Part shown: positions 11,140 through 19,922 of the stretch, one piece after another
Layout of the letters: each line of letters opens with the position of its first letter
How positions within the stretch are numbered: position 1 is the first letter of the stretch
Origin: Ideonella sp.
GTDB taxonomy: Bacteria; Pseudomonadota; Gammaproteobacteria; Burkholderiales; Burkholderiaceae_C
Reading direction: 5' to 3'
Assembly (NCBI GenBank): GCA_015075545.1
Contig: JABTUC010000002.1
Location: forward strand, 124,001 to 188,000
DNA: 64,000 bases
Notes under the pieces: generated by a model
Database searches by the model: none
What the model was told of the DNA's origin: nothing
The model's input: only the letters and a program-made list of their open reading frames with translations
Program-made: the position numbers and the translations under genes

Positions 11140-12921
11140 CTATCTGAGTCGCTCCAGCGTTTCGCCGATCGCCTGGCGCGCGATCGTCGAGTCTGCCGCC
11201 GTGGACAGTTTCATGTCGGCGGGTTGCGGCCTGAAGTACTTCGAGAGCTTGTCCCCGAGCTTGTCGGTCAGCGCGTCGAAGTTCGACAGCGGATCGACCA
11301 GCTCCTTCCATACCGACAGCAGCTTCTTCAGTGATTCGGCGCGGAACTCGCGTGTGCCGCTGTCGATGCTGCCCGCAAGGCGCGGGGTGACGAGCACGAT
11401 CGCGGCGTCGCGGCTCTGGGTCTTGGAGCGTTCGTTGAACAGCAGGTTGGCCACCGGGATATCCCCGAGCACGGGCACCTTCGACGTCCAGCCCACGTTT
11501 ACCGCTTCGTAGAGGCCCGAGAGAATCAGTGTCTTGCCGAACTCGACTTCGGCCGTCGCGCCGACCGTCTGCTTGAAGGTCGTCACCGACTCGGCAAACG
11601 TGCCGCTCGACGTGGGCACGAAGAACGAGCGCACGGTGTCGACGCGGAACTTGGTGCGTTCGTTGTTGATCTCGAGCGGCGTCAGCTTGACCGCCGTGCC
11701 GACGTCGATCGTCTGCAGCGTGCCGGCGTTGATGCCGCTGACCGCAACGCTCAGCGTGCGGCCGATGAAGAACTCCGACTGCTGGCCGAGCGAGGCCACC
11801 AGCGATGGCCGCACCACCACGTCGTAGAAGTCGTCGTGCGTGTTGAACAGGTTCAGGCTGTAAGTGATCTGCGGCACGCTCAGCGCGGTGGTGATCACGC
11901 GGCTGAAGCTGTCGGCCGCACCGGTGCTGTAGCGCCGCTCGGTCTTGCTGTCGCCGCCGAACTGCAGCCTCAGGCCGTCCAGCAGGTTGATGCCGACGCT
12001 GTGCTTGGTGGTGTCCTGGCTCAGCAGTAGCGTGACTTCGACCATCACCTGCTGCAACGAATCGCTCGGCGGTGGGGCGGCCTCGGTTGGGGGTTGCGTC
12101 TGCGGCTCCTGTGCGCGCTGGGTCGCGTCGTCGGCGGCGACCCGCGTCGCCGCAGGCGGCGCTCGATCGTCCGATGCCGACAGCGCGGCGCCGCGCAGCA
12201 GCTGCGAGAGCCTTGGCGTGTGGGCCGAGAGCCCGCCCGCCGGCAAGGCATTCGCGCGCTCGATCACCGCCGCGAGGTACTGCCGGTCTCCGCGCGCGGC
12301 CGCCACGTACGCTGCTGCTCTGAGCGCCTGCGGATCGGTCGGCGCCAGCGCGAGCGCCCGCTCGGCGGCGAGCTGAGCCACGCCGAGATCGCCGCCGTAG
12401 TACGCCGAGGCGGCGAGCGCGGCGAAAGCCTGCGGCGCGTCGGGACGGTCCAGGACCGCCCAGGCGAACTCCTCGGCTGCGGCGGGGTAGTTCCTCTGGC
12501 TGAATTTGGCCAGCCCGGCGTAGTAGTGCGACCAGTAGTAGCCGGGGGCGAACTTCACTGCGGCGTCGTAGCCCACCTGGGCCAACTCGGCCGATTGCTG
12601 CGAGGCGTCGGCAAGCTGGTAGGTCAGCCCGTTGAGCAAGTGCAGATAGCCGTTCTGCGGCTCGGCCCGCAGCGCGGCCGTCAGCAATGGGCGAGCAGCC
12701 TCTGGTTTGCCGTTGCGCAGCGCGGCGGCGATGTCGCCGCGCTGCGCCTGAGCGCTGGCTGGCGGTGTGCTCTGGGCCGCCGGCGACGACGCGCAGCCCC
12801 CCAGCGCAAGCGGCAAGCCCAACGCGACGACCACGGCCGCCGGCAGTGCCGCCAGCCGGCAGCGGATGCGCTCCGGCGTGCGCCGCGATGCACGTTGCTC
12901 GAATTGCATGACAGTTCCCAT
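11140..12921 (-). CDS. TPR/secretin-like outer-membrane lipoprotein
   Basis: About 593 residues. The start at 12921 (MGTVMQFEQ...) is chosen for its GGAGGA site. A lipoprotein signal ends in LALGGC, so the protein is probably lipidated. TPR-like helices follow (LTAALRAEPQNGYLHLLNGL; FAWAVLDRPDAPQAFAALAA) to about residue 220, then a low-complexity Gln/Pro linker, then a domain with the hallmarks of a secretin C-terminal module: VMVEVTLLLSQDTTKHSVGI early and KVPVLGDIPVANLLFNER followed by IVLVTPRL late. Secretins form outer-membrane channels for type II/III secretion or type IV pili. No ATPase, platform or pilin genes flank it, so it may serve a dedicated small system with the neighbouring exported proteins (inference). 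A C-terminal extension of about 90 residues follows the secretin core. Confidence 0.82.
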   Translation of the reverse strand: MGTVMQFEQRASRRTPERIRCRLAALPAAVVVALGLPLALGGCASSPAAQSTPPASAQAQRGDIAAALRNGKPEAARPLLTAALRAEPQNGYLHLLNGLTYQLADASQQSAELAQVGYDAAVKFAPGYYWSHYYAGLAKFSQRNYPAAAEEFAWAVLDRPDAPQAFAALAASAYYGGDLGVAQLAAERALALAPTDPQALRAAAYVAAARGDRQYLAAVIERANALPAGGLSAHTPRLSQLLRGAALSASDDRAPPAATRVAADDATQRAQEPQTQPPTEAAPPPSDSLQQVMVEVTLLLSQDTTKHSVGINLLDGLRLQFGGDSKTERRYSTGAADSFSRVITTALSVPQITYSLNLFNTHDDFYDVVVRPSLVASLGQQSEFFIGRTLSVAVSGINAGTLQTIDVGTAVKLTPLEINNERTKFRVDTVRSFFVPTSSGTFAESVTTFKQTVGATAEVEFGKTLILSGLYEAVNVGWTSKVPVLGDIPVANLLFNERSKTQSRDAAIVLVTPRLAGSIDSGTREFRAESLKKLLSVWKELVDPLSNFDALTDKLGDKLSKYFRPQPADMKLSTAADSTIARQAIGETLERLR

Positions 12922-12999
12922 GGAATCCTCCGATGTACGAGTACTGGTCCAGCCGAGCGCGGTGCCCGAACGTGGGGCACACGCCCGGGCGCCGGCCAT

Positions 13000-14289
13000 C
13001 TAGGAGGGAATGCGGATCCGGATCTGGCACCGTGTGTAGGCCGGACCCGTTTCGGCGCCGCGCGGGCCGACCCAGAACTTCATCCAGTGGGGCACCGGCA
13101 CCGTACCGGCGCACGCCGGGTTGTTGCTCGTCGCGAGAAAAAATCGGACGTGGCTGGTGCCCGGGCCTGTGGCCGTGAAGCTGCCCAGGCCAGTGGCGGT
13201 GTTGAGCTCTAACCCGCCCCCGGTCTCCGGGCTTACGCACCCTGCGGGCGCCGCGATGCTGATGAGCTGCCCGTTCGCCGGTGGTTGCTGCGAGAGCCGG
13301 ACCTGACACCGGAATTCGCCGCCTGTGTTGATCAGGTTGCCGCCGCCACGCGGGTTGTTGCAGTCGCACGCCTGCGTGAACGTGATGGGCGATGGATTGA
13401 TCGCCAGCGTCAGCGTGTCGGACCGGTTGGGGTTGGGCGTCCTCACCACCAGCGTCGACACGAGGGGGCTCTGGATCGCGCGAATGCTCGCCACGTTGCC
13501 GTCGAAGGCAATGTCCTTGTTGGACAGCGCCCCTGGGCTGGTGATATTGCTGCCGGTGGCAAGCCGAAGGTATGCCGGAAACTGCACCGCGTAGTTGAAC
13601 GACTGCTGGATGTCGATCGCGGGCGATTGATCTGCGACAACGATGGAGGTCCTGAAGCGCACCGTGCAGTTGCTCGTGTCAGTGCTGGCACCGGGCCGCA
13701 GCGTGAGGGTCGCGCGCGAGTTGCCCAGATCCATCACGACCGAGCCAAGGCAGTTCGCCGGCGATTGGTCCACGCCGCGGAAGGTCCAAGTGGGCACGCG
13801 GTGCGGCTCGACTCGCACCGCCAGGCTCGACTCGTCGCCCGCCGGCATGCGGAAGTGCAGTGTGCGAATCCGCGTCGCCCCGGCATGGGCCGGGGAGTCG
13901 ACCTCGACCTCCACCGAGCCCTTGGCGATCCTGCAGCCGCGAAGGAGATTCTCGACCCCGTTGTGAGCCCGGACGATCCGAGCCGTCACCAGGTCATCCG
14001 CGGGGTTGCCCACGGACGTGACGCGGACCGCCCGACCGATGTCGATGCCGTCGCCCCACACTTCGAATCGCATGTTGTCGCCGGCTTGCACCGACAGCCG
14101 CTGGTTGTCGTTCTGGGTGTCGACCTTGTTGCAGTTGCCGACCCCGGTGACGAACTCGACGGCCGCCTGGCTCGCGCCCGGCAGCAGGGCCAGCGCAGCG
14201 GCCAGGCCGGCGGCAGCCACGCCGATGCGCGGCAATCGACTGGGGCGACTGCAAACACTCGTTGGTTTCGCGAAGCGGCGTTCAGTCAT
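13000..14289 (-). CDS. Exported cysteine-rich protein of unknown function
   Basis: A 429-residue protein not recognised as any family. A signal peptide (hydrophobic core GVAAAGLAAALALLPGA, cut near SQA) precedes a mature region rich in Thr, Val, Asn and Gly with ten cysteines spread along it, including a CDC pair. The segment pattern looks like beta-sandwich repeats; there is no membrane anchor. The ATG at 14289 follows AGGAGAGCC and overlaps the upstream small gene by 8 bases; the secretin-like gene starts about 80 bases downstream. It could be an adhesin, a pilus-like subunit or a secreted substrate of the secretin-like lipoprotein, but sequence alone does not decide. Confidence 0.72.
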   Translation of the reverse strand: MTERRFAKPTSVCSRPSRLPRIGVAAAGLAAALALLPGASQAAVEFVTGVGNCNKVDTQNDNQRLSVQAGDNMRFEVWGDGIDIGRAVRVTSVGNPADDLVTARIVRAHNGVENLLRGCRIAKGSVEVEVDSPAHAGATRIRTLHFRMPAGDESSLAVRVEPHRVPTWTFRGVDQSPANCLGSVVMDLGNSRATLTLRPGASTDTSNCTVRFRTSIVVADQSPAIDIQQSFNYAVQFPAYLRLATGSNITSPGALSNKDIAFDGNVASIRAIQSPLVSTLVVRTPNPNRSDTLTLAINPSPITFTQACDCNNPRGGGNLINTGGEFRCQVRLSQQPPANGQLISIAAPAGCVSPETGGGLELNTATGLGSFTATGPGTSHVRFFLATSNNPACAGTVPVPHWMKFWVGPRGAETGPAYTRCQIRIRIPS

Positions 14290-14548
14290 GACGGCTCTCC
14301 TCACGTGGGTTGTTGGGTGGTCCCGGACTGCGATGGTCGCCAGGGGGCGTTTGTCCGGCGTTTGTCGACGCGTGGCCGGCTCGGGCCGGCGCGGGCGGCG
14401 CCTCGGCGCTCGCCTGGCGCAGGAACTCGCCGAGTTGCGCCGGCTCGTCGAACAGCCGCGGCTCGGACTCGTCCATGCCGCGCACCGCAGCACGGAACTG
14501 CCGCAGGTGCTGCCACACCCGCACGAGGAACAACCGGGGTTCGTCCAT
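14282..14548 (-). CDS. Small protein leading the minus-strand exported-protein operon
   Basis: An 88-residue protein starting MDEPRLFLVRVWQHLRQFRA, with a GGGAGC ribosome binding site. The first 50 residues look like a compact folded domain (FLRQASA near its end); the remainder is a Pro/Ala-rich tail. There is no signal peptide, so it is probably cytoplasmic. It ends within the start of the next gene. Its first residues resemble those of the divergent gene at 14690 (M-D/N-E/D-PR-x2-LVRV). Part of its coding tail overlaps the third operator-like repeat at 14343-14367. Function unknown. Confidence 0.6.
   Translation of the reverse strand: MDEPRLFLVRVWQHLRQFRAAVRGMDESEPRLFDEPAQLGEFLRQASAEAPPAPARAGHASTNAGQTPPGDHRSPGPPNNPREESRHD
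14343..14367 (-). promoter_or_regulatory. SARP-box-like direct repeat upstream of the exported-protein gene
   Basis: Two copies of the heptamer CAAACGC (minus strand) separated by 4 bases, flanked by CGA on one side and CCCC on the other. It matches the two copies in the divergent region everywhere except the 4-base spacer. It has the same orientation relative to its downstream gene (start 14289) as the other two copies. No TAnnnT -10 box follows at the matching distance, so promoter activity is less certain. Confidence 0.65.
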
Positions 14549-14587
14549 GGGCCGCTCCCGAGCCGCGTTGCGCAAGACCGTAGCGCG

Positions 14588-14650
14588 GGGGGCGTTTGCT
14601 TAGCGTTTGTCGTTGCGCGATCGGTCGACAAACGCTGAGCAAACGCCCCC
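14588..14650. promoter_or_regulatory. Palindromic double SARP-box operator between the divergent operons
   Basis: Two 25-base arms (14588-14612 and 14626-14650) are inverted repeats with one mismatch around a 13-base centre. Each arm contains the heptamer GCGTTTG (or its complement CAAACGC) twice, with start-to-start spacing of 11 bp. An 11-bp direct heptamer repeat is the known binding pattern of SARP activators. On the plus side TAGCGT (14656-14661), and on the minus side TACGGT (14582-14577), lie 9 bases after the last heptamer and fit -10 boxes. Both start codons are exactly 39 bases from the arms. A SARP-type regulator gene is encoded 2 kb away. Confidence 0.8.
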
Positions 14651-14689
14651 AGGCCTAGCGTTCGCGACCTCTGGATCGAGGAGTGGCCC

Positions 14690-15142
14690 ATGAACGACCC
14701 TCGCAGCATGCTGGTGCGGGTGCGCCGGCACCCGAGTCGGACCCTTGCCCGGTCAGCGATGTGCGCGCTTCCTGGCGGCCGCCGTGCCGGCGCCATCGTG
14801 GGAACGGCGATCTGCGTGGCTGCTTGGTTGATGCCATCGAGCGACGCCAGTGCCTTCCAGGTCTGCGAAAGTCGCTGCCAACCGACCGATGCCGCTTGCC
14901 TGGCAACGGTGGCGGCCTGCGAGACCAAGATCCACGCCTACAACCTGTACACGGGTCAGATGGGCAGCGGCGTCGGCACGCATCACCCCCGCCACCTCAC
15001 CCGGGCCGAAGCTGCCGGTGCCGCCGCCGCAATCGCTGCCGCAGCCGGCCCTGCCGGTGCCGGGCAAGCCGCCGGCTCCGACACCAGCCCCGGGTCCGAC
15101 CGCGACCAAGCCTTCGGTGACACGGTGAGGAGGCCGATATGA
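14690..15142 (+). CDS. Exported small Cys-motif protein, first gene of the plus-strand operon
   Basis: A 150-residue protein, not recognised. It starts at ATG 14690 behind GAGGAG. A basic N-terminus and a hydrophobic stretch (GAIVGTAICVAAWLMPSS) suggest secretion with cleavage near ASA. A four-cysteine motif follows (CESRCQPTDAACLATVAACE), then NLYTGQMGSGVGTHH. The C-terminal third is ambiguous: the annotated frame reads Ala-rich and ends overlapping the next ATG, while the +1 frame gives a Pro-rich tail (PKLPVPPPQSLPQPALPVPG) stopping just before the next ribosome binding site. A frameshift around 14970-15000 is possible. Confidence 0.6.
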   Translation: MNDPRSMLVRVRRHPSRTLARSAMCALPGGRRAGAIVGTAICVAAWLMPSSDASAFQVCESRCQPTDAACLATVAACETKIHAYNLYTGQMGSGVGTHHPRHLTRAEAAGAAAAIAAAAGPAGAGQAAGSDTSPGSDRDQAFGDTVRRPI

Positions 15143-16089
15143 AGATGACCGCTTCGACCTCGGCCCGGTTGTGCACGACCGGACTCGTTGTCTGCGCATT
15201 GATTGCGTCGCAGGTCGCGCTCGCGCAGGCGCCCGCGCCGGTCGCGCTGGGTCCCTTGACGGTTCACGTCACGCGTGCGGGCGCGCCGGCGGCCAACGCC
15301 ACTGTGTGCATCGGTGTTCCCAGCGACCTCAACCTCCACTACCAGGGGACCACCGACGCGCAGGGCCGCGTGAGCTTCAGCGAGGTCCCCAGTCCCCCGT
15401 TCGTGGCGACGGCGAACCAGGCGGGCCGCGGCGCCCAGCGATCGATTGCGCCGGCGTCGCCGAATGTGCCGGTGCCGCCGCAGGTGCCGCTGCTGCGCAT
15501 CGATCTGGCGTTGCCGGCCAGCGGGGGCCCGACCTGTCCGTCGACGGCGGCGGGCCCGGCCCGCACGCTCGGGCCGCAGATCCGGCAGCAGTTGCCCCCA
15601 CTCATCGGCCCGACACGCCCGCCGTCGATCACACCGGCCCGGACGGAGTTCTGCTTCGGCGCCATCGGCATGCAGTGCGGTCAGCCGCAGACGGGGCTGC
15701 CGACCACGGCCGCGTGTGCGTCGGGCAATTGCTTCATCAACGGCGGTAGCTGGGAGCACGACGAATGCTGCTACCGCAACCGGCATTCCCTGTGGTGCGA
15801 GTTGGATCCCGCGCGCCAGATCGAAGCCGCCAGCATGACCATGTGCGTGAATACCTGGAACAAGGCCGTGCGGCTGACCACCAAGGGGCTCTCCTGGCGA
15901 CGGCCGGTGGACTTCGCTCGTGGCAACCGCAGCGGCACCGTCGAGTTCGCCCTGTATTGCGCCCCTGCCAACACGCTGCTGCCGCCGGACGACGCCAACA
16001 AGTGCTGCAGCGGCCAGACGCGCGACCTCAGCGCGCCGGAGAGAGCCTACGCGGACTCCATCTTCGAGACGCTGCGGGCATGCCGGTAG
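15139..16089 (+). CDS. Exported cysteine-rich protein with HDECC motif
   Basis: A 316-residue protein. The signal peptide ends near VALAQA. Residues of about 35-95 resemble a carboxypeptidase-regulatory-like beta-sandwich (LTVHVTRAGAPAANATVCIG ... TTDAQGRVSF). After a Pro-rich linker comes a Cys-rich domain, with NGGSWEHDECCYRNRHSLWC as its most striking segment and then KCCSGQTRDL. The His-Asp pair next to cysteines recalls the active-site HD of secreted phospholipases A2, but spacing and order differ, so enzymatic activity is not claimed. It overlaps the previous frame at ATGA and has an AGGAGG ribosome binding site. It belongs to the operon driven from the 14588-14650 operator. Confidence 0.72.
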   Translation: MKMTASTSARLCTTGLVVCALIASQVALAQAPAPVALGPLTVHVTRAGAPAANATVCIGVPSDLNLHYQGTTDAQGRVSFSEVPSPPFVATANQAGRGAQRSIAPASPNVPVPPQVPLLRIDLALPASGGPTCPSTAAGPARTLGPQIRQQLPPLIGPTRPPSITPARTEFCFGAIGMQCGQPQTGLPTTAACASGNCFINGGSWEHDECCYRNRHSLWCELDPARQIEAASMTMCVNTWNKAVRLTTKGLSWRRPVDFARGNRSGTVEFALYCAPANTLLPPDDANKCCSGQTRDLSAPERAYADSIFETLRACR

Positions 16090-16172: not shown

Positions 16173-16670
16173 ATGAACAACACCTCGCACTCGCTTCTTG
16201 CCACGCCCTTCGTCGTCATGGCGCTGTGGGCCGTGCCGAATCAGTTGCCGGCTGCCGAAGGGTCAACCTCCGGCGGCGCCTCGACGTGCATGGTCACCGT
16301 CATCACGACCAACGAGGACGGCAGCACGGACAACTCCGTTCGGCCCTTCCAGGCGCGATGCCGAAATGGCCAGAGCAACGGCGACATCGAGTACTACAAC
16401 CCCTACACCGACACCTACGAGACGGGGTCGACTCCGCGAATCGAACCCCTCGTGATTCCGCGCGGGTCGTCGAGCGGTTCGCGCAGCGGCACAGGCACGT
16501 CGCAAGGCGGCACCCGGGGCACGACGGGAAGCACCACGGGCTCGTCGACGTCGCGGCGCGGGGCCGGCAGTTCCGGCGCGCCGTGCACGTCGTCGGCCAC
16601 GTCGTCGAAGGCCGTCAAGACCACCCGCAGCACAAGATCCGGGCGGCCTTGCACGTCGACTCCCCAATAG
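16173..16670 (+). CDS. Exported Ser/Thr/Gly-rich protein, last gene of the plus-strand operon
   Basis: A 165-residue protein with a very strong AAGGAGG site eight bases before the ATG. A signal peptide ends near LPAAEG. The next 70 residues look folded (STCMVTVITTNEDGSTDN; DIEYYNPYTDTYETGS), followed by a low-complexity Ser/Gly/Thr tail. From about 16560 another frame has equally good codon-position bias and a more ordinary composition, so the true C-terminus is uncertain. An 83-base gap separates it from the preceding gene. Not assigned to any family. Confidence 0.55.
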   Translation: MNNTSHSLLATPFVVMALWAVPNQLPAAEGSTSGGASTCMVTVITTNEDGSTDNSVRPFQARCRNGQSNGDIEYYNPYTDTYETGSTPRIEPLVIPRGSSSGSRSGTGTSQGGTRGTTGSTTGSSTSRRGAGSSGAPCTSSATSSKAVKTTRSTRSGRPCTSTPQ

Positions 16671-16757: not shown

Positions 16758-16778
16758 GCGGCTGCTGGCGTCAGCCGC
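16758..16778. terminator. Hairpin between the plus-strand operon and the convergent regulator gene
   Basis: GCGGCTG and CAGCCGC form a perfect 7-bp stem with a 7-base loop, overlapping the regulator's stop codon. There is no T-tract; a terminator role is suggested only by position. Confidence 0.35.
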
Positions 16779-19700
16779 CTTGTGTCGAGACGAGCGGCTG
16801 ATCGGACAGCAGACGATCCATCACCGCGTCCAGCGAGATGGGTCGATGCTCGACCTGAGCGCAATGCGTCACCGTCGGATCCGCGAGGTCGCTGATCGAT
16901 CGCTGCGCTTGATCGCGTGAGGCGGCGTCCGCCTGCGGGTGCAGACTCACCATGCGCCAGACGCGTGCCGCCTCGACTGGATGTCCGACATGGAGCAGCC
17001 AGTCGCCGAATCGGACCGCCACGTCGAGTGCATGCTTGACGAGATCACGCTCGCGCGCGATGCGCCCGGCGGTGCGCAGCCGCTGGAGCGCCGCGGCGGA
17101 GTCGCCCCGCCGTAATGCCAAGCGCGCCAACTCCACTGCAGCGCCGATCTCGACGAAGACGCTTCCGATGCCGCGGTTGCTGTCGATCGAGCGCTGAAGA
17201 TGCCGTTCGGCGTCATCGAGCTGCCCCAGTTCGAGCAGCGCTTGGCCGAGAGTGCCGGCATGGATGGGTACGAAGAATTCGATGCGATGGCGTTCGCTCA
17301 GGCGCAAGCCTTCTTCGCTGCAATCCCGTGCCGACGACCAGTCGCGGCGAGCCAGATGCAGGCCTGCCAGGCACCCGAGGGTGCGGACCACGGAGGTGTG
17401 CCGGCCGCGTACTCGCTCCATGGACAGGGCCTGCCCGTAGTGGCCGATCGCCTCGTCGTAGCGACCTTCCAGCTTTGCGACGATACCGAGGTTGTTGAGC
17501 GCATTGGCGATTTCGTCGATCGCGCCTGCGGCGCGGCCGATGGCCAGCGCGCGCTCGAAGCACGGCTTGGCGTCGCTGCCGCGGCCCTGCGCGCAGTAGC
17601 ATCCCCCGGCGATGTTCAGGCAACCGTACAACGCGCGTCGGTTGCCGGATTGCTCGGCCATCTCCGCACCAGCCAGTGCGATCGCGAAGCCACTCTGATG
17701 CTCGCCCAGCAGATAGTGCAACTGCGATAGCGCGGCACGAACGTCGGCCCCCAGCGACTGTCGGTCATGCCCTGGAGGACCGGCATCGAGCGCGGACTGG
17801 AAGTGGCCAATCCCCTCGCCCTTGCGGCCCCGCACCTCGAAGTACCTTCGCCATGGCTCGGTCGATCGGGCCAGCGCCTCCGTGGACCCATGCACCACAG
17901 CGTGATGCCATGCTGCTCGGTAGTTGGCGTAGTCCGACTCGATGCTTTCGGCGAGCAGCCGAGGGTCGGTGCCGGCGCGGGCTGGCAGTTCCGCGAGGTA
18001 CTGCGCATAGTGCGCCGCGTGCCGCTGCGCGAGCTCGTCGGCACGCGCGCCGTCGCCGGCCAGCCGCTGCGCGGCGAACGCCGCCACCAGCGGGTGCAGC
18101 CCGAAGCGCCCGGCCTCGTCGACCGCCAGCAGGCTCTTGTCGACCAGCGACGACAGCAGCGGCAGCGCCACCTGCGCCACCGCCAGCGCCGCCGCGCGCG
18201 TGAAGCCGCCCTGGAACACCGCGAGCGCGGCCAGCGCCTCGCGCTCGCGCGGCGCCAGCAGGCTCCACGAGCGCTCGAGCACGGGCGCGCGCTGTCGTGC
18301 TGCCGGGCCGCGCCGGCGCTGCAGCGGCGGCGGGTCGCGCTCGAGCAGGTCGATCGAGCGGCGCAGGTCCTGCGCGATCTCCTCGGGCGGCAGCAGCCGC
18401 ACCCAGCCGGCGGCCAGCTCGATGGCCAGCGGCAGCCCGCCGACGGCTTGACGATGTCGATTACCGCGCCCAGGTGCCGCGCCAGCGAGAAGCTGCGCTG
18501 CGCTGCTGACGCACGCTGCTCGAACAGCCGCACGGCGTCGAACGCGCTGGCGGCGTCGAGGTCGCGGCTGTCCCTCGTCGGCACCGCCAGGCCCGCCAGC
18601 GGCAGCAGGTGTTCGCCGGCGTGGCCCAGTCGCACGCGCGAGGTGGTGAGCAGCCGCAGCGCCGGCGCGGCGGCCAGCAGCCGCTCGATCAGCCCGGGCA
18701 ACTGCGGCCAGGTGCTCGGCGTTGTCGAGCACGCACAGCACGCGCTGCGCGCCGAGCTGGCGGCCGATCTGTGCCACCGGGTCGCGCGCGTCGTCGATCG
18801 GCACGCCGAGTTGATCGGCGATGCGCGCCAGCACCGCGCCGGGCTGGCTGAGGTCTTGCAGCTCGACCCAGGCGCGCCGCTGGGAAGGCCTCGGCGCGCC
18901 GCCTGCAGCGCGCGCCGCGCCAGGGTGCTCTTGCCGACGCCGCCCGGGCCGACGAGGGTGATGCGCGCGCGCCGTCGCCTTCGAGCAGCCGCTTCCAGCT
19001 CGGCCAGCTCGCTGCGCCGGCCGACGAACGCCCAGCGGCTTCGCTGGCCGGCGCGCGCGCTCGGCGCGACGCGACCGCCGCCGACGGGGCCTCGCGCTCG
19101 AGCAGGTCGCGCAGGCGGTGCGGGGCTCGACGCCCAGGGCTTCGGCCAGGGCCTGCGCGTGCTCGCGGTAGAGCTGCCAGGCGCGCGCGGGGTGGCCCAG
19201 CTCGATGTGCGCGCGCAGTTGCGCTTCGAGCGCGTCTTCGTCGAGCGGGTCGACGCTGCGCAGGTGGCGCGCCAGCTCGATGCGCTGGTCGGCCGCCGCG
19301 CCGGCCAGTGCCTGCAGCGCGGCCTGGCGCCAGCGTGCGTCGAAGCGCTGGCGCTCGGCGGCCAGCCACTCGGCAAACGCAGGGTTGGCGTCGTCGTCGA
19401 GCCCTTCGAGCAGCGCGCCGCGGCGCAGCGCGACGGCCTGCGCGGGCTGCCCGGCATCGAGCTGCTGCTCGAAGGCGCGCAGGTCGGTGGCCACCTCCCA
19501 GCACAGGGCGTGGTCGCTGGCCTGCAGATCGCCGGCAAGATCGCGTGCCTTGAACACCACGTGGCGCAGGTTGCGCCGCGCCTCGGTGTTGCTGCGCTCG
19601 GGCCACAGCAGCGCGGCCAGGCGGTCGCGCGACACCCACTGCCCTGCTTGCACCGCCAGCAGCGCCAGCAGTTGAAAGCGCCGCTCCGGCGCGAAGGCCA

Positions 19701-19788
19701 CCGGCACCGCCGCGCCGACGAACTCGGGCCGCCCCAGCAGCAAGAGCCGCGGCACGATGGCAACAAACCCCCGTGGTCCGGACGTCAT
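16771..19788 (-). CDS. SARP-type regulator (HTH-BTAD, NB-ARC, TPR) with apparent frameshifts in the ATPase domain
   Basis: About 1005 codons from ATG 19788. The N-terminus is a winged-helix plus bacterial transcriptional activation domain (RFQLLALLAVQAGQWVSRDR; RRNLRHVVFKARDL; ALAEALGVEP), as in SARP/AfsR activators. The middle should be an NB-ARC/STAND ATPase and the C-terminus is TPR repeats (NALNNLGIVAKLEGRYDEAI). The middle is broken: the P-loop GPGGVGKSTLARRAL and FVGRRSELAEL lie in a second frame, LRDLLEREAP in a third, CVLDNAEHL back in the first, LLTTSRVRLGHAGEHLLPL again in the second, and AVGGLPLAIELAAGW in the first. At least five frame changes fall between about 19112 and 18448, mostly single-base losses. 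The one frame stays open but would lack a P-loop. It is either a decaying gene or a local sequencing/assembly fault. It is probably the activator of the operators at 14.3-14.65 kb. Confidence 0.75.
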   Translation of the reverse strand: MTSGPRGFVAIVPRLLLLGRPEFVGAAVPVAFAPERRFQLLALLAVQAGQWVSRDRLAALLWPERSNTEARRNLRHVVFKARDLAGDLQASDHALCWEVATDLRAFEQQLDAGQPAQAVALRRGALLEGLDDDANPAFAEWLAAERQRFDARWRQAALQALAGAAADQRIELARHLRSVDPLDEDALEAQLRAHIELGHPARAWQLYREHAQALAEALGVEPRTACATCSSARPRRRRSRRAERARRPAKPLGVRRPAQRAGRAGSGCSKATARAHHPRRPGRRRQEHPGAARAAGGAPRPSQRRAWVELQDLSQPGAVLARIADQLGVPIDDARDPVAQIGRQLGAQRVLCVLDNAEHLAAVARADRAAAGRRAGAAAAHHLARATGPRRRTPAAAGGPGGADEGQPRPRRRQRVRRRAAVRAACVSSAAQLLAGAAPGRGNRHRQAVGGLPLAIELAAGWVRLLPPEEIAQDLRRSIDLLERDPPPLQRRRGPAARQRAPVLERSWSLLAPREREALAALAVFQGGFTRAAALAVAQVALPLLSSLVDKSLLAVDEAGRFGLHPLVAAFAAQRLAGDGARADELAQRHAAHYAQYLAELPARAGTDPRLLAESIESDYANYRAAWHHAVVHGSTEALARSTEPWRRYFEVRGRKGEGIGHFQSALDAGPPGHDRQSLGADVRAALSQLHYLLGEHQSGFAIALAGAEMAEQSGNRRALYGCLNIAGGCYCAQGRGSDAKPCFERALAIGRAAGAIDEIANALNNLGIVAKLEGRYDEAIGHYGQALSMERVRGRHTSVVRTLGCLAGLHLARRDWSSARDCSEEGLRLSERHRIEFFVPIHAGTLGQALLELGQLDDAERHLQRSIDSNRGIGSVFVEIGAAVELARLALRRGDSAAALQRLRTAGRIARERDLVKHALDVAVRFGDWLLHVGHPVEAARVWRMVSLHPQADAASRDQAQRSISDLADPTVTHCAQVEHRPISLDAVMDRLLSDQPLVSTQGG

Positions 19789-19922
19789 CGCGCGCGCGGG
19801 CCACCTCGCCGACGATTCGGCATACCGAACCCCCCGTCGAACATGATGTCGTCGGGCTTGCGCGGTGCTTTGAGCACCGTCAAACCGCTCTCCGCCCGGC
19901 GCCCGGCGATCAGGGGGCTGCC

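Follow-up and report, generated by a model that had tools for sequence, protein, structure and literature searches.

Gene content of the cluster and its repeat elements

What lies at this locus? The window—the whole 64-kb stretch of DNA analysed here, from an Ideonella sp. (Burkholderiales, Betaproteobacteria)—carries two divergent operons. The leftward one begins with a small ORF of the RLFLVRVWQHL family (14282..14548, minus strand), which has ~45 conserved residues and a variable tail and whose product matches nothing in Pfam or NCBIfam. Three strands and a helix are predicted for its core (residues 10–45, a block with pLDDT 81–95; pLDDT 72 and pTM 0.47 for the whole model), and a fold search with this protein returned nothing at E < 0.17. 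Next come a gene for a likely secreted protein of ~429 aa (13000..14289, minus strand; N terminus judged by eye), likewise devoid of Pfam and NCBIfam matches, and a gene for a TPR-secretin (11140..12999, minus strand; PF00263, E 3e-19). The secretin domain of the latter is present and scores far below the NCBIfam cut-offs for GspD, SctC, PilQ and MshL, that is, short of those for the secretin classes of type II/III secretion or type IV pili. Small proteins with the pattern FLVRVW...FRA.VR...LF, ~45 residues in extent, form a family tied to the regulators described below.

On the right, an ORF (14690..15142, plus strand) opens with a leader and first codons that duplicate those of the small ORF, and further on is similar to a longer protein of a relative. 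It is followed by genes for a likely secreted Cys-rich protein (15139..16089, plus strand; judged by eye), for which CarboxypepD_reg scores a weak 21.6 bits against a curated cut-off of 32.3, and for another protein judged by eye as likely secreted (16173..16670, plus strand; start taken from similarity), which is conserved in the cluster of the relatives. The rightward operon comprises three likely exported proteins, export being judged by eye. Cluster members recur in MAGs of Ideonella, Piscinibacter, Rubrivivax and Casimicrobiaceae, with the secretin and the 15139..16089 protein present in all four. The Ideonella protein similar to the 14690..15142 product is much longer (404 aa frame).

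The initial annotation had pointed out three elements in which the heptamer GCGTTTG occurs twice. A pattern search of the window found GCGTTTG-N4-GCGTTTG in all three, at 14347-14364 (+), 14592-14609 (+) and 14629-14646 (-); up to two mismatches were permitted, at which three matches were also reached in 4 of 100 shuffles, and the three real ones are all exact. On the sense strand each element reads CAAACGC-N4-CAAACGC, making CAAACGC, not GCGTTTG, the heptamer. Operator 1 (14592..14609, minus strand; CAAACGC-TAAG-CAAACGC) belongs to the leftward operon and starts, at 14609, 61 bases ahead of the start codon of the small ORF. Operator 2 (14629..14646, plus strand; CAAACGC-TGAG-CAAACGC) belongs to the rightward operon, starts 61 bases ahead of the ORF at 14690 and forms a palindrome with operator 1. 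Operator 3 (14347..14364, minus strand; CAAACGC-CGGA-CAAACGC) is located within the small ORF, towards its 3′ end, and precedes gene 13000-14289. The pitch of the direct repeats is 11 bp, as in SARP operators.

A TAnnnT box had further been claimed exactly 9 bases past the outer two elements. This is true of the palindromic pair: TACGGT (14577..14582, minus strand) and TAGCGT (14656..14661, plus strand), the predicted -10 boxes of operators 1 and 2, each stand 9 bases past the second repeat. Operator 3 (element 14343-14367) has no TAnnnT; instead, a possible weak -10 of the form xAnnnT, GACCAT (14333..14338, minus strand), follows after 8 bases.

How many such copies are to be expected? In the own genome (3.69 Mb, 85% complete) we find four exact copies, against none in a reversed-pattern control and an expectation of ~0.02 (assuming independence and the base composition of the window). 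All four sit in clusters with a small ORF and a BTAD regulator. The fourth (C6:442463-442480) belongs to a paralogous locus ~304 kb from the window cluster; the stop codon of a second AfsR-like regulator, whose frame is unbroken, falls within its spacer, and this copy precedes a paralogue of the small ORF with a core 87% identical to that of the window ORF. Allowing three mismatches at most across heptamers and -10, a search returned these four sites and three others (twice on C1, once on C9), each with three mismatches, while reversed controls gave 0 and 2; none of the mismatched sites is convincing as a further regulon member in this genome. At two loci (L014 8464-8481 and L017 12001-11984), the operator overlaps the final codons and stop of the upstream regulator gene, the end of the regulator and the next promoter sharing bases.

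Distribution in related genomes

Is the motif confined to the neighbourhood of this gene family, a question that the initial annotation had proposed to check? Exact pairs are present in 33 of 399 family genomes, 45 pairs in total, of which 17 are at module loci (four each in G000, G001 and G002, three in G197, one each in G003 and G096). The reversed control gave 27 pairs, close to the remaining 28 (399 genomes; counted by hand from the table). At the 24 of these 28 that were examined, TAnnnT was found at 8 or 9 bases in none and xAnnnT in one, and the same loci (up to ~3 kb each) gave no tblastn match to the regulator, the small ORF or other cluster proteins. With 4 of 4 own-genome copies at clusters, and pairs elsewhere in the family at control frequency, the proposed restriction is borne out. 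When the pair was combined with TAnnnT at 8–9 bases, three of 399 order genomes matched (the own genome, G096 and G480), against two matches in the reversed control. G480 belongs to a different family and has three sites, including a divergent pair, at a homologous cluster; by their sequences, these are the sites of the Casimicrobiaceae MAG locus L060. The G096 site stands between two BTAD regulators of 32–33% identity.

Protein homology leads to the same elements. A scan with a regulator alignment yielded seven loci, from six betaproteobacterial MAGs and one actinobacterium, and operators were present in all six betaproteobacterial ones; four of these repeat genomes found by motif (two Ideonella loci, Piscinibacter and MAG-221), the Casimicrobiaceae locus had also been found by motif, and Rubrivivax SJ592 is new. 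In a homology search with the SARP domain as query, 81 of 399 family genomes gave a match at E ≤ 1e-6. Among 20 regions taken from this search (L101–L120), pairs with xAnnnT occur in six (L101, L102, L104, L105, L107 and L118), two regions (L103 and L106) end inside the regulator gene, and in the other 12 (L108–L117, L119 and L120) neither such an operator nor a small ORF was found.

Anchoring the analysis on the small ORF, we find a pair with at most one mismatch 59–92 bases upstream of 13 out of 14 such ORFs, and upstream of all eight at loci found by homology (L053, L056, L060, L101, L102, L104, L105 and L107). The exception, in Piscinibacter (L051), follows the secretin gene, and the operator upstream of it is at a distance of 3.5 kb. 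Applied to 605,624 strand-bases of the window and twelve operator-less loci, the same pair criterion gave three matches, all of them the window operators. A small-ORF match in G021, confined to residues 26–73 and at a locus without operator, was taken as chance.

The spacing to a predicted -10 is likewise shared. In a set of 32 loci, 39 pairs deviate at no more than one of the twelve fixed bases. All 26 N-AAACGC pairs without mismatch are followed at 8 or 9 bases by xAnnnT, in 22 cases by TAnnnT; among the 13 one-mismatch pairs, eight have xAnnnT and five none, one of these five overlapping an operator as a third repeat. TAnnnT follows 20 of 21 exact CAAACGC module sites (four each in G000, G001 and G002, three each in G197 and G480, one each in G003, L056 and G096), operator 3 of the window being the exception. 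This count omits a one-mismatch pair on a Piscinibacter contig that has no -10 (L052 3240); with that pair and a one-mismatch Rubrivivax site, it becomes 21 of 23. Identical heptamers followed by TAnnnT numbered 30 at a pitch of 11, compared to 0–6 at pitches of 8–10 and 12–15, many of these loci being selected by the motif itself. In the L101–L120 regions alone, which were fetched without the motif, four cases at pitch 11 and four at pitch 10 give no discrimination.

Palindrome and ancestry of the copies

Operators 1 and 2 form inverted arms of ~22 bp with one mismatch and operons on both sides, in agreement with the near-perfect palindrome between divergent operons that had been described. 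Arms of this length could alternatively act as a hairpin (terminator or attenuator) or represent a recombination or transposon end, with the direct repeats being incidental. We consider this very improbable: the same grammar is found at single, non-palindromic copies (14347, C6:442463 and relatives), inspection of the surrounding ORFs by eye revealed no transposase, and divergent operator pairs recur in Ideonella (two), Piscinibacter, Rubrivivax and Casimicrobiaceae with distances that vary from 15 to 67 bases between loci. Moreover, the predicted starts lie outside the palindrome, so that these promoters would not transcribe it.

Beyond the operator, the two arms of the palindrome remain alignable over the leader and the start codon and on into coding sequence; a corresponding alignment is obtained with the paralogous locus. 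From these alignments, the palindrome appears to consist of two back-to-back promoters that are partly the product of an inverted duplication of a promoter and gene start, after which the right-hand copy would have become the start of another protein. Shared leaders and start codons, at operators 1 and 2 and at the paralogous locus, are also what one would see if the likeness of the copies reflected a recent duplication devoid of function. Yet the repeats and their -10 spacing persist across genera and in a second family where spacers and leaders differ, and the 24 background pairs described above show next to none of the -10 boxes that accompany the module sites, making this the least probable of the alternatives considered here. 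Conservation outside the spacer, earlier read as the mark of a bound protein, is thus in the palindromic arms partly due to inverted duplication; heptamers and -10 spacing are kept across genera.

A similar division applies to the flanking bases GGGG and TCG, also claimed to be kept. GGGG is common to the three window copies but not kept at most sites elsewhere, whereas the bases ahead of the first sense-strand repeat, CGA or CGG, are kept at many sites in other genomes. As heptamers and -10 spacing are retained where GGGG is absent, the shared GGGG is most simply explained by, and probably reflects, ancestry.

AfsR-like regulators

Which protein might recognize the repeats? The SARP-type gene that the initial annotation placed in the cluster is indeed there (16771..19794, minus strand; start codon putative). 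Its SARP domain (19129-19752) comprises the wHTH-BTAD part, with PF03704 above and Trans_reg_C below the cut-off at the N terminus, and is followed by NB-ARC/TPR similarity in changing frames. The similarity to relatives runs in frames -2, -3 and -2, though the long frame has no stop; these changes may represent a draft sequencing error or a real change or decay. The paralogous regulator in the own genome is intact, with BTAD, NB-ARC and TPR domains in Pfam, among them the C-terminal NB-ARC/NOD and TPR parts that in the window copy appear as similarity spread across frames. The SARP domains of the two are 98% identical, and either regulator could therefore serve all four sites.

In a search of PDB sequences, the paralogue is collinear with AfsR (8k60 and 8jke; residues 21–940, E 4e-8 and 6e-8), TPR proteins ranking above AfsR; the SARP domain alone found nothing significant there (EmbR at E 0.09, AfsR absent from the matches). 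Modelled together with six relatives, the SARP domain of the window regulator reached a mean pLDDT of 86.5, and Foldseek placed AfsR and EmbR on top for this model (E 3e-7 to 7e-5, rmsd 6–7 Å over both domains). The relative at L055, when scanned, scored 64 bits against a cut-off of 1430 bits for the AfsR equivalog NF053617, which indicates a protein related to AfsR and not the same one. Judged by sequence and model, the window regulator and its paralogue fall into the class of AfsR-like large SARPs.

PhoB/OmpR boxes, too, are 7-bp direct repeats with 4-bp spacers bound by winged-helix regulators. A two-component response regulator of the OmpR/PhoB type would share the DNA-binding fold class, and PhoB and other OmpR-type domains do appear among the Foldseek matches, albeit as weaker ones that set in at E 0.07. 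However, a profile scan of cluster proteins and inspection by eye revealed no response regulator and no regulator with a receiver domain, the Pfam matches of the paralogous regulator include no receiver domain, and the occurrence of the motif follows that of the BTAD regulators and the small ORFs, between genera and in a second family too. We therefore regard a response regulator as an unlikely binder of these elements, if the least unlikely of the alternatives to an AfsR-like activator.

A probable SARP-type operator in Betaproteobacteria

AfsR-like activators have been studied mainly in antibiotic-making Streptomyces. Our search of the open-access literature found no account of a SARP/BTAD operator in Betaproteobacteria. 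According to the excerpted text of PMC10936776, SARP promoters carry direct repeats 11 or 22 bp apart, the 3′ repeat being separated from the -10 by 8 bp; two SARP protomers are bound next to each other, and the afsS promoter has CACTGT as its -10 and a -35 given as TTCAGC. The heptamer geometry before a -10 that had been likened to SARP targets matches this grammar as excerpted, with 8 or 9 bases between the 3′ repeat and the predicted -10 at our sites. In particular, the afs box as described in those excerpts shares with them two 11-bp direct repeats near a poor -10 of the form xAnnnT, and the regulators share with AfsR of Streptomyces coelicolor the order SARP-NOD(NB-ARC)-TPR and a collinear sequence match. 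They differ in the host phylum, in the recognition helix (T88 and R92 in AfsR versus H and K here, in our own alignment), likely in the repeat sequence, and in the secretin in the regulon and the paired divergent operators found here. For PimR, of the SARP-LAL type, the excerpted text of PMC5930380 gives CGGCAAG heptamers with 4-bp spacers; these are heptameric direct repeats as here, but the heptamer is another, the main operator has three repeats, the regulator architecture differs and the target lies in an antibiotic cluster. EmbR of Mycobacterium tuberculosis has the winged-helix and BTAD fold in common with our regulators and, going by the excerpts of PMC10936776, an FHA domain where NB-ARC/TPR stand here.

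Together, these findings make it highly probable that an AfsR-like activator family in Betaproteobacteria uses the three elements as SARP-type operators, which would act as follows. Two SARP domains of an activator composed of winged helix, BTAD, NB-ARC and TPR would bind both CAAACGC repeats side by side, one helical turn apart and just upstream of a weak -10, and the bound activator would recruit RNA polymerase. Operators 1 and 2 would serve as back-to-back promoters of the two divergent operons, and operator 3 as a second, weaker promoter within the leftward operon. The position and grammar of the elements, their family-specific distribution, the regulator class and its predicted fold were computed here; from these we infer binding and activation, as well as the start sites, the identity of the acting regulator and the signal received by the NB-ARC/TPR part. 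The link between SARP proteins and the elements is one of association. The predicted regulon would consist of the window cluster and the paralogous locus, that is, the small protein, the likely secreted proteins and the TPR-secretin. Going by sequence, this appears to be SARP operator grammar with another heptamer, in another phylum and with another predicted regulon. If true, it extends a grammar structurally solved for Streptomyces AfsR to Gram-negative bacteria and gives proteins of the BTAD-NB-ARC-TPR type a concrete predicted regulon, which includes a secretin and likely secreted proteins.

A variant heptamer and the recognition helix

Relatives with 46–54% SARP-domain identity, and L118 at 38%, carry GAAACGC instead of CAAACGC, and in five out of six such loci the GAAACGC pairs precede the small ORF. 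Pairs of this type with xAnnnT at 8 bases gave 10 matches in 8 of 399 genomes against 9 in the control; without an excess, it is the locations of the matches that inform. Six of the 10 are at a regulator or small-ORF locus and four elsewhere, while those with TAnnnT are at such loci in three of three cases. One match, on a contig of G389 reached by DNA pattern alone, stands directly ahead of a small ORF.

Could the first base of the heptamer be read by the recognition helix? The sequence NLRHV[VI]F[KR] is found in all eight regulators of CAAACGC loci. At its H position, L101–L106 and L118 have K, L107 has T, and both regulators flanking the G096 site have N. Since K is shared with 11 of the 12 operator-less regulators, only the H of the CAAACGC group is distinctive, and the helix difference between the heptamer groups tracks phylogeny. 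In our own mapping, which goes through an EmbR alignment and the SARP helix and uses the published AfsR numbering, this H/K position would be the equivalent of T88 in AfsR, and R92 that of the K/R/N/D position four residues further. T88 and R92 are the two base-contacting residues of AfsR in the excerpts of PMC10936776, the source of this numbering. The match between heptamer base 1 and helix residues is suggestive only, and offers a testable recognition code in the positions of T88 and R92.

A broader reading, which we put forward tentatively and incline slightly against, is that of a modular, possibly horizontally moving system, in which AfsR-like SARPs of Betaproteobacteria, with recognition helices matched to lineage-specific CAAACGC or GAAACGC heptamers, control an undescribed envelope or secretion system. 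Its components would be the TPR-secretin, secreted Cys-rich proteins and the novel protein of 45 residues. As the operator may sit in the stop codon of the regulator, regulator, promoter and small gene would then move as one cassette. Separately, two loci of another genus (L104 8130-5415 and L105 11365-14104) hold several GAAACGC-type pairs per cluster, some of them directly before an ATG and with weak -10s.
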